Shown here piece after piece: positions 23,210 through 26,761 of a DNA stretch of 64,000 nt; position 1 is the first letter of the stretch; each line of letters begins with the position of its first letter. A model generated the notes under the pieces. That model did no database searches, was not told the origin of the DNA, and worked only from the letters and a program-made list of their open reading frames with translations. The position numbers were made by a program, and so were the translations under genes. This DNA is from Geitlerinema sp. PCC 7407 (lineage in GTDB: Bacteria > Cyanobacteriota > Cyanobacteriia > PCC-7407). Location of the stretch: contig NC_019703.1 of assembly GCF_000317045.1 (NCBI RefSeq), forward strand, positions 4,596,934 through 4,660,933. Reading direction: 5' to 3'.

Positions 23210-23237
23210 TGCTGCTTCTTCTCGATTGACTCTATCT

Positions 23238-24131
23238 ATGACGCTCGCTGTCCTGGTCCCAGCCTTTAAACTTGGGCTGTTTCTCGCCACGATTGTTCTG
23301 ATTGCCTACATCGCTGCCTGCGTTTTTTTGTTGCTCCGCCAAAATCGATTTATTTTCATGCCGTCGCCCTTTGTGGACCGGACGCCAGAGGATCTAGGCC
23401 TGAGTTACGAAGAAGTTTGGATTCCCGTTCCCAAGACGTTTAATACGCAAAAACTGCACGGCTGGTGGATTCCGGTTGCGAATCCCAAGGGCGTTGTGCT
23501 GCATCTGCACGGCAATGGCTTCAACATCGGGGCCAATCTGGATCAAACCAGGCGATTTCACAAGCTGGGCTACTCGGTTTTGCTGGCTGACTATCGGGGC
23601 TATGGGCGCAGTCAAGGCCCCTTCCCCAATGAAAAGCGGGTCTACGAAGACGCTGAGGCGATCTGGCAATATCTGGTCCAGATGCTGGGCGCGTCGCCTG
23701 CTGAGATTGTTTTGTACGGCCATTCCCTGGGCGGGGCGATCGCCATTGACCTGGCCGCCAAGCACCCCGAAGCGGCGGGCCTGATCGTCCAAAGCTCTTT
23801 TACGAGAATGCAGTCGGTGGTGGAGCGGGTCTGGCATCTGTGGATGTTTCCGGTGTCGCTGCTGCTGACTCAGCATTTCAAGTCCATTGAGAAGGTGCGA
23901 TCGCTGCAAATGCCGGTCCTGTTTACCCACGGCACCCTAGATCAGGTGGTGCCGCCGGAGATGAGTCCGGCGCTCTACGCAGCGGCCCCCCACCCCAAAG
24001 AGCTGCTGATGGTGGAAGGCGCGGACCACAATAATGTGGGTGAGGTCGGTGGCGAAACCTATTTGCAGGTGCTGCAGCGATTTTTGGCCAGTACTCGACC
24101 TGCGGTAATGTCCAGTTCGGCGCTGCGTTAG
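23238..24131 (+). CDS. Membrane-anchored alpha/beta hydrolase (BEM46/YfhR type)
   Basis: 297 residues. An N-terminal TM helix (LGLFLATIVLIAYIAACVFLLL) anchors the protein. The hydrolase domain has VLHLHGNGFNIGANL, ADYRGYGRSQGPFP, nucleophile elbow LYGHSLGGAIAIDLA, catalytic Asp in THGTLDQVVPPEMS and His in EGADHNNVGEVGG. This arrangement is that of the BEM46/ABHD13-like serine hydrolases. The natural substrate is unknown. TTG 23226 is an alternative start. Confidence 0.9.
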   Translation: MTLAVLVPAFKLGLFLATIVLIAYIAACVFLLLRQNRFIFMPSPFVDRTPEDLGLSYEEVWIPVPKTFNTQKLHGWWIPVANPKGVVLHLHGNGFNIGANLDQTRRFHKLGYSVLLADYRGYGRSQGPFPNEKRVYEDAEAIWQYLVQMLGASPAEIVLYGHSLGGAIAIDLAAKHPEAAGLIVQSSFTRMQSVVERVWHLWMFPVSLLLTQHFKSIEKVRSLQMPVLFTHGTLDQVVPPEMSPALYAAAPHPKELLMVEGADHNNVGEVGGETYLQVLQRFLASTRPAVMSSSALR

Positions 24132-24167
24132 CGCAGCGATTTTTGGTGTTTCTGGGTTCCTCTGCCG

Positions 24168-25595
24168 ATGGCTGTGGACTATGACCTGGTAATTGTGGGC
24201 AGTACGCCCACGGCGATCGCGGCGGCACGGGCGGCTTTGCGATCCCAGGGACGCGTGGCCCTGGTCAGTCAGCGATCGCCCGAGGAGGGCTTGGGCCCAG
24301 AGACTCCCTTGTTGCCCAGCCTGAGCGCCCTAGGAGCGATCGCCCAGCAGCAGCCCCTGGCTCACTGGCTGGGGCTAGCCGACTCGGCCAGGGCGGAGCT
24401 CCAGTGGCCAGCGGCCCTGGCCTGGCACCACGCCCTCGGAGACACCCTGGCTCCTGACCCAGCCGTCTTAGCGGCGCAGGGCCTCGAAGTGATTTTGGGT
24501 CAGGGGGCGTTTCGGCGCGAGCCCAGCTTGGGGTTTAATCTAGCCGATCGCTGTCTGCGATCGCGCGCCTACCTGATCGCCACCGGCTCCCACACCGGGC
24601 GTCCCGCCATCGAGGGCCTCGACGCTGTGCCCTACTGGACCCCCGAGACGCTAGCAACGCAGCCCCCGGAGGTCTTGCCGGAGCGCCTGCTGATCCTGGG
24701 GGGTCAGGGCTTGGCAGTGGCCTGGGCCGAGGCCTTCGCTCGCTTTGGGGTAGCCGTCACCTTGATCACGCGCCAACCGAGACTGCTGCCCCAGGCCGAA
24801 CCCGAAGCGGTGGCGCTGATCCAAGCTCAGCTCGAGGCGGACGGCGTGCGCATTTTGACCGGATCCCCGATCACCCAGGCGCGGATGCTGGACCAGGAGG
24901 TGTGGGTCCAGGCGGGCAATGATGCGCTGGCGGGCGATCGCCTGCTCGTGGTGGCGGCCCCGCAGCCGAACCTGACAGGACTCAACCTCGAAGCGGTGAG
25001 GGTCCGCGCCACGCCACGCGGCCTCAGCGTCAAGCCGTGGCTGCAAACGGCCCATCCCCGGATTTACGCCTGCGGTGCGGTGCTGGGCGGCGATCCGGCT
25101 CCCTACATTGGCCATCACGAAGCGGCGATCGCCGTCGAAAATGCCCTCTGGGGACGTCGCCGGGTGCCGCACTATCAAGCAATTCCCCAGTGGGTGCCCA
25201 CCCAAAATCCCCTGATCAGCCTGGGCCTCACCGAAGCCCAAGCCAGCCAGCAGTACCACGAAGACGCCTGGGTCCTGCGCTGCCCCTACAAGGCTCTGCC
25301 CCAAGCCCATCTGCACCATCAGGTGAATGGTTTTGCCAAGCTGATCGTTCGTCCCAGCGGCCAGATTTTGGGTGCGCACATCCTCGGCCCCGCCGCGCCC
25401 GAGCTGATGAGCGCGATCGCCCTCCTCCAAGAGTCGTCCCAGGGGATGCCTGCCCTTGAGAGGCTGATTCCCATTGCTCCCAGCTACAGTGAAGTGTGGA
25501 CGCAGCTCGGCCAGCAGTGGCGCGATCGCCGTCATCAGCGCTGGGGGCCGTGGCTTGAGGCTCTCGCGGCCTGGCGCCGCGCCCGTGCCCGCTAG
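24168..25595 (+). CDS. Disulfide-reductase-fold flavoprotein without the redox disulfide
   Basis: 475 residues with the fold of lipoamide dehydrogenase/mercuric reductase: FAD domain (VIVGSTPTAIAAARAA, and IYACGAVLGGDPAPYIGHHEA), NAD domain (LLILGGQGLAVAWAEAFARFGVAVTLITR) and C-terminal dimer domain. The position of the CxxxxC redox pair reads VSQRSPEEGLGPETPLLPS, without cysteine. The C-terminal His-Glu motif (HPTLSE in active enzymes) reads APSYSE, so the catalytic His is missing too. The first glycine motif is also weak. It cannot act as a dithiol reductase by the standard route; a direct NAD(P)H oxidase or quinone reductase role is possible. Confidence 0.85.
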   Translation: MAVDYDLVIVGSTPTAIAAARAALRSQGRVALVSQRSPEEGLGPETPLLPSLSALGAIAQQQPLAHWLGLADSARAELQWPAALAWHHALGDTLAPDPAVLAAQGLEVILGQGAFRREPSLGFNLADRCLRSRAYLIATGSHTGRPAIEGLDAVPYWTPETLATQPPEVLPERLLILGGQGLAVAWAEAFARFGVAVTLITRQPRLLPQAEPEAVALIQAQLEADGVRILTGSPITQARMLDQEVWVQAGNDALAGDRLLVVAAPQPNLTGLNLEAVRVRATPRGLSVKPWLQTAHPRIYACGAVLGGDPAPYIGHHEAAIAVENALWGRRRVPHYQAIPQWVPTQNPLISLGLTEAQASQQYHEDAWVLRCPYKALPQAHLHHQVNGFAKLIVRPSGQILGAHILGPAAPELMSAIALLQESSQGMPALERLIPIAPSYSEVWTQLGQQWRDRRHQRWGPWLEALAAWRRARAR

Positions 25596-25637
25596 CCGCC
25601 CTTTTTCGCCAATGAACCCGCCGAGTTGAACCCACCG

Positions 25638-26090
25638 ATGAAACTTAAAGTCCACCCCTTGCATCCCCAGGCGATCTTGCCGAGCTACGCCCACCCCGAC
25701 GACTCGGGCCTCGATCTGTGCGCGATCGCCTCCGCCACGATCGCCCCGGGCGAAAGCCGCCTCATCCCCACCGGCCTCAGCATCGAGCTACCGCCCAACA
25801 CCGAAGCCCAGATCCGGCCCCGCAGCGGTCTCGCCCTGCGCCACCAGATCACCGTCCTCAACACCCCCGGCACCATCGACGAAGGCTATCGCGGCGAAAT
25901 CGCCATCATTTTGATTAATCATGGCCGCCACCCCTTCACCGTGGAGCCCGGCATGAAGATTGCCCAAATGGTCATCGCCCCCGTACTGCGAGTGGCCGTC
26001 GAAGCCATTGGGACCGCCGACGCCCTGACGAGCACCGCTCGCGGCCAGGGCGGCTTCGGCTCCACGGGTTATCGAGTGGGCGATCGCTAG
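25638..26090 (+). CDS. dut: dUTP diphosphatase
   Basis: 150 residues, trimeric dUTPase type. It hydrolyses dUTP to dUMP and keeps uracil out of DNA. Motif 1 ([10 protein letters not shown]), motif 2 (PRSGLALRH), motif 3 ([14 protein letters not shown]) and motif 5 ([10 protein letters not shown]) are all present. The ATG at 25638 starts the domain properly. It is convergent with dcd, the stops overlapping in CTAG; dcd makes the dUTP that this enzyme uses. Confidence 0.96.
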
Positions 26091-26686
26091 ACTCGGGGCA
26101 GCGTCACCCGCTCCCGCTGATCTTGGTACTTGCCCTGGCGCTTCTCGTAGCTGACCGCGCACGGCTCCCCTTCCAAAAACAGCAGCTGCACCACGCCCTC
26201 ATTGGCATAGATTCGGCAGTCAGCGCTCGATGAGTTCGAAAATTCGAGGGTCAGGTGTCCTCGCCACCCCGCCTCCGCGGGCGTCAGGTTGGCAATGATG
26301 CCCGAGCGGGCGTAGGTACTCTTGCCGATGCAAATCACCGACACATTTTCGGGCACCGACAGCCGCTCCAGCGCCACCCCCAAGCCATAGGAGTGGGCCG
26401 GCAAAATAAAAAAGTCCCCAGCCGCATCTTGGTGCAGCTTCGCAGGCTCTAGGTTGTCAGAGTTAAAGTTTTTGGGATCGACCACCGTCCCTGGGATGTG
26501 GCGGAAGATGCGAAACTCTGCCGGCGAGAGGCGAATGTCGTAGCCGTAGGACGACAAGCCATAGCTAATCACCGGGCGCAGGGGTCCCCCAGCCTCAGCG
26601 GTCACTTCTCGCACCAACGTCGGCAAAAACGGCTCAATCATGCCGTTTTCGGCCATCGCCGTAATCCAGGTATCGTTTTTGATCAT
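26087..26686 (-). CDS. dcd: dCTP deaminase
   Basis: 199 residues (start at 26686, MIKNDTWI). It deaminates dCTP to dUTP, the substrate of the convergent dut product. The central segment [30 protein letters not shown] contains the catalytic Arg and Glu region of the family. It has the length of the monofunctional enzyme rather than a fused dut domain. Confidence 0.94.
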
Positions 26687-26761
26687 GGCTCCCACTCAAC
26701 CCTCAGGAGAGCGATCCTAGCACTCTCCGGATCGCTTTAGGGTGTCCCTGCCAGAGCCCCC

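Follow-up and report, generated by a model that had tools for sequence, protein, structure and literature searches.

A cyanobacterial clade of disulfide reductase-like proteins without the redox-active disulfide, often encoded behind cobD

The gene at 24168–25595 and its motifs

The window (the whole 64,000-nt stretch of DNA analysed here, from a host genome of 4.68 Mb in a single contig) contains, according to its ORF listing, an intact open reading frame of 475 residues at 24168–25595 on the forward strand. Pfam matches and a family alignment define the product as a protein that resembles the flavoprotein disulfide reductases (FDRs) and lacks their cysteine pair. Its upstream neighbour is an alpha/beta hydrolase (23226–24131, forward strand), with a terminator-like hairpin (24121–24138) between the two genes. 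Downstream are a dUTP diphosphatase (25626–26090, forward strand), a dCTP deaminase (26087–26695, reverse strand) and a P-loop NTPase, PRK07414 (26762–27412, reverse strand), that weakly resembles cob(I)yrinic acid a,c-diamide adenosyltransferase. The gene content of the genome is cyanobacterial, one example being a ChlB-like protein further downstream. The third-position GC of the gene is 0.78, similar to that of its neighbours.

The FDR superfamily domains are all present and in order. Pyr_redox_2 matches residues 5–311 and Pyr_redox_dim, the dimerisation domain, matches residues 340–446; the FAD, NAD and dimerisation domains score 103.7, 51.8 and 61.2 bits, respectively, each over its Pfam cut-off (103.7 bits being the Pyr_redox_2 match and 61.2 bits that of Pyr_redox_dim). 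Among solved structures, mercuric reductases are the best matches (4ywo, 2.9e-40). Against the MerA model (TIGR02053) and the lipoamide dehydrogenase model, the protein scores 188.6 and 174.6 bits, below the cut-offs of 454.45 and 408.8, respectively. Since proteins of this family match such oxidoreductase models though the dithiol is missing, they are likely to be wrongly annotated.

Membership in the SthA or LpdA-type families, which share the FDR fold, was rejected because the scores fall far under the curated cut-offs: 111 against 465 bits for SthA (Si-specific transhydrogenase, NF003585), and 98.9 against 479 bits for LpdA (NAD(P)H-quinone dehydrogenase, NF005883/PRK07845; Mtb Rv3303c, PDB 1xdi). 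LpdA has neither a working cysteine pair nor the His-Glu pair and keeps its nucleotide-binding motifs. SthA has an altered disulfide and requires its FAD and nicotinamide sites, which are degraded in the window protein.

Where FDRs have the redox-disulfide loop GGDCxxxxCVPSK, the aligned segment (residues 39–50; 24282–24317, forward strand, as for all motifs below) reads EEGLGPETPLLP and has neither the cysteine pair nor the lysine of PSK. This combination, a defining feature of group I FDRs (LPD, GR, MerA), is absent from the window protein and from all 80 Cys-less sequences described below. The degenerate FAD dinucleotide motif (residues 9–16, IVGSTPTA, 24192–24215) has G-S-T-P-T-A, and the ribose glutamate is replaced by serine. 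The NAD(P) motif of group I enzymes, GxGxxG with its glutamate, is also degenerate (residues 177–188, LGGQGLAVAWAE, 24696–24731), reading G-G-Q-G-L-A with alanine in place of the glutamate. At the position of the FAD "GD" motif (residues 300–308, YACGAVLGG, 25065–25091), the aspartate is replaced by alanine. The segment aligned to the HPxxxE motif of LPD and GR (residues 436–442, IAPSYSE, 25473–25493) lacks the histidine and retains Glu442; intact MerA-like relatives likewise lack the histidine. On our own choice of scored residues (for FAD: GxGxxG, ribose Glu, ATG and GD), the window protein keeps four of six FAD features, the ribose glutamate and the GD aspartate being lost, and two of four NAD features.

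An earlier note on this gene had reported a cysteine-free CxxxxC site in a protein of retained full length, and both observations hold, with the PSK lysine gone as well. It had also described the FAD and NAD folds and dimer domain as kept, and the His-Glu motif as lost. The folds and the dimer domain are indeed present, but the FAD and NAD motif residues are degenerate, and of the His-Glu motif (APSYSE) only the histidine is missing.

A structure predicted from a five-row alignment was of low confidence (mean pLDDT 62.7, and below 50 over much of the FAD domain), and a Foldseek search with this model returned LPD, MerA and SthA at TM-scores of 0.41–0.47 and an rmsd near 16. The model and the search give the superfamily level only and add nothing to the sequence result.

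Descent and conservation of the Cys-less family

A homologue search of 59 genomes of the class, host genome included, yielded best matches of 29–41% identity that are of two sorts, with or without the GGDCxxxxCVPSK loop. A profile of the Cys-less sort was then run against 388 genomes, and 80 regions were retrieved. The loci come from the best-scoring matches of both searches and are not a random sample. The resulting motif table comprises 80 Cys-less rows, including the window protein (79 distinct genes, as L035 is identical to L119), 13 intact MerA-like rows (12 distinct, as L146 is identical to L019), one intermediate and four more distant paralogues. The Cys-less rows span 61 genera and 24 families. 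Within the 59-genome panel, a Cys-less member is present in 34 genomes and was not found in the other 25; these counts include twelve additional, more diverged members, two of which are broken over frames. In two contigs of family f11 (L174 of G058 and L184 of G044), the gene appears to be split over frames behind cobD, reflecting either lineage-specific decay or draft errors. No description of the clade was found in the literature, as judged by titles and the start of abstracts, with most subscription journals outside the scope.

Neither C....C nor C..C occurs anywhere in any of the 80 Cys-less rows, which excludes a misaligned active site. Among 11 members of greater divergence, C....C turns up by chance in the stop-to-stop frame of two, in neither case inside the disulfide loop. 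The central glycine of the FAD motif (G2) is serine or threonine in 77/80 rows, and all six FAD features are retained in 17/80, including 8 of the 13 rows from family f32. In the NAD(P) site, the central glycine is lost in 71 rows and retained in 9, and all four features survive in 5/80. Residues that are specific to the clade, or more strongly conserved there than in the intact clade, are Cys302, Cys390, Trp451, Glu223, Gln237 and Gln248. The two cysteines lie outside the classical site and are conserved in 73/80 (Cys302, within the former GD segment) and 69/80 rows (Cys390, alanine in the window protein). One clade member, L018/L118 of G020, has 13 cysteines elsewhere in its sequence, compared to two to seven in the other aligned rows of the clade.

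The nearest intact relatives are cyanobacterial MerA-like FDRs, probably the group of Slr1849 of Synechocystis, which is the studied member. They share with the Cys-less proteins the length, the domains, a C-terminal RR tail and YPTxxE in place of HPTxxE. However, in all 13 intact rows GGDCxxxxCVPSK, the two GxGxxG motifs, ATG and GD are preserved. In a tree of 60 rows, calculated without the disulfide and His-Glu columns and rooted on two long-branch paralogues, the Cys-less rows are monophyletic (43/43, support 100/100) and adjoin the intact MerA-like proteins. The changes inferred on this tree, in which a chance of the alignment puts a cysteine of two Cys-less rows into the C1 column, number one each for the second cysteine, the lysine and the central FAD glycine, compared to 10 for the ribose glutamate, 13 for the ATG glycine, 12 for the GD aspartate, 10 for the NAD glutamate and 5 for the NAD glycine. 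These counts indicate that the dithiol was lost first and once, and the cofactor contacts later and many times in parallel. The protein of G019 (L017/L086), which has His and Cys at the pair positions, so that only the second cysteine is left, and intact dinucleotide glycines, is a plausible intermediate between the intact and Cys-less forms, judging by its sequence; its sister placement is weak (87/39).

The histidine has a different history. Its position is tyrosine in 13/13 intact MerA-like rows (IHxYPTxxE), indicating that its absence predates the loss of the disulfide. Thus, the two separate catalytic losses proposed in the earlier note are not borne out, since the histidine does not represent a second independent event. 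The tests suggested there favour the note on other points. The nearest homologues (35–40% identity) also lack the disulfide, while the intact ones (29–33%) fall outside the clade; the active site is correctly aligned; and the changes are common to one cyanobacterial clade.

Pairwise dN/dS values are 0.114–0.233 for 13 Cys-less pairs and 0.040–0.154 for four intact pairs, some pairs being saturated (dS >2). They cover pairs of the family and not the window gene itself, as this gene has no close relative. Purifying selection acts on the family, and decay of the family is disfavoured.

Genomic neighbourhood and cobD

A cobD gene immediately precedes the Cys-less gene, in the same orientation, in 56/83 evaluable loci, corresponding to 46/66 genera and 17/26 families; the remaining 27 loci lack this adjacency. 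Of 86 Cys-less loci scanned, three were too short, evaluable loci being those that extend 1.3 kb or more upstream of the gene. Adjacency was defined as an inter-frame gap of −600 to 1500 bases on the same strand, and the broken copy L174 was counted. Since the loci were drawn from the best-scoring matches, a conserved gene order may be favoured in these counts. Most gaps range from an overlap to about 350 bases. One example of these neighbours scores 323.9 bits against TIGR01140 (cut-off 290.55). Among seven intact or intermediate loci looked at, cobD is upstream in none of the five that were evaluable, a further difference between the MerA-like FDRs and the Cys-less family.

In the window genome, cobD is located elsewhere, at 3618736, and the slot that it holds in most relatives is occupied by the alpha/beta hydrolase. 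The downstream genes are shared with other loci: dCTP deaminase recurs in 17 loci and the PRK07414 P-loop NTPase in 12, and the window has both. The CobA/CobO-like NTPase is beside dcd in the window, a cluster that recurs in 11 other loci. Recurrent genes farther upstream are presumably HU and pilN/O/Q.

A CobD match (E≤1e-70) was found in 54/59 panel genomes, more than the 34 that carry the Cys-less gene, suggesting that the Cys-less protein is dispensable for some genomes with CobD. Conversely, G007 has the Cys-less gene and CobQ with no CobD match at this threshold, which could reflect a draft gap. No Rfam family matched in 10 loci, so no cobalamin riboswitch was detected there. As to a conserved cobD operon as a mark of the cobamide pathway, the observations are adjacency in 56/83 loci, its absence in the window genome and the lack of a riboswitch match in the 10 loci. 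No fusion to cobD was seen among the loci examined. In a CobD frame of 667 codons in G035 (L155:5014–7014), the CobD domain is preceded by about 310 codons; this frame was rejected as a fusion candidate, as the extra part is unmatched by FDR profiles.

Possible functions

The task of the family members is probably not disulfide reduction, considering that the cysteines were lost once and long ago, that selection persists and that cobD is often adjacent. We propose that they are FDR pseudoenzymes forming a clade of ancient origin within the cyanobacteria, and assign this reading a probability of roughly one half. A single ancestor near the MerA-like FDRs lost the disulfide, the adjacent lysine and the central glycine of the FAD site (to serine or threonine) once. 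Residues of the NAD(P) site and those contacting FAD then disappeared repeatedly, in one lineage after another, but purifying selection preserved the framework, and in most lineages the gene remained behind cobD. FDR-type disulfide and NAD(P)H chemistry would then be gone, leaving a folded dimer with a binding or scaffold role that could serve the CobD step, or something co-expressed with it. The tie to cobD is broken in the window genome. The CobD step supplies the aminopropanol arm of cobamides. Its reaction converts threonine phosphate to aminopropanol phosphate by decarboxylation (PMC7242693). This decarboxylation needs no electrons, so a non-redox partner fits better than a reductase. In its boldest form, where the whole clade serves CobD as a structural partner with little or no cofactor and the redox fold has been re-used as a non-redox accessory protein, the proposal is rather unlikely.

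Some members of the family may still bind FAD, which would weigh against the proposal: 17/80 rows keep the six features, and a serine or threonine at G2 does not preclude the cofactor. NADH peroxidase, which binds FAD, is a solved FDR relative with GSSHGG, i.e. serine at this position. The link to CobD is in turn weakened by the loci without an adjacent cobD, the window genome among them, by G007, by the many genomes with CobD in which no member was detected, and by the negative riboswitch and fusion results. We have therefore withdrawn the argument that loss of the central glycine means loss of FAD, as the substitution alone does not speak against the cofactor.

The family could instead consist of working flavoenzymes whose bound FAD hands electrons directly to a small acceptor, such as a quinone, a metal or corrinoid Co(II) before adenosylation, an alternative that we regard as possible but distinctly weaker. 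FDRs without a working cysteine pair are known, e.g. mycobacterial LpdA, and judging from the motifs direct electron transfer is possible above all for the 17 rows rich in FAD features, including those of f32. The serine or threonine shared with NADH peroxidase, the cobD gene upstream in most loci and the CobA/CobO-like NTPase downstream in 12, window included, would suit such an enzyme. However, the NAD(P) motif is degraded in most rows, FAD residues were lost repeatedly, also from the window protein, and the score against the LpdA-type model is far below its cut-off. The corrin reductase CobR offers a parallel, as it carries out a flavin-dependent step of cobamide synthesis (PMC7242693). It belongs to a different flavoprotein family.

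It is improbable that the protein regulates or stabilises an intact FDR paralogue as its partner in mixed dimers. The dimerisation domain is kept and holds several clade-conserved residues, and G012, G036, G371 and G377 contain both intact MerA-like and Cys-less copies; in the window genome, however, no intact relative is close, the other three FDRs being 31, 26 and 27% identical to the window protein. Least probable by far is a pseudogene decaying in the window genome. Its long end branch (0.88 changes per column) indicates fast evolution, and the broken f11 copies would fit, yet the frame is intact, the third-position GC matches the neighbours, the losses are common to 79 distinct genes and each pair tested is under purifying selection, the window gene itself being without a close relative. 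A decaying copy was thus rejected on clade support, spread and dN/dS.

The earlier note had likewise argued for a different activity rather than decay. The case against decay is sustained by the single shared origin, the members in 34/59 panel genomes and dN/dS far below 1. A new activity is supported only partly, as the many independent losses of cofactor-site residues make a non-catalytic role no less likely. The core of the note was right; the erosion of the cofactor sites and the connection with cobD had escaped it.

The pseudoenzyme family proposed here represents a graded natural series, from intact proteins through a one-cysteine intermediate to members with barely recognisable nucleotide sites, suited to studying how catalysis is lost step by step while purifying selection continues. 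Through its link to cobD, a so far unknown factor of cobamide synthesis in cyanobacteria can be tested for directly.
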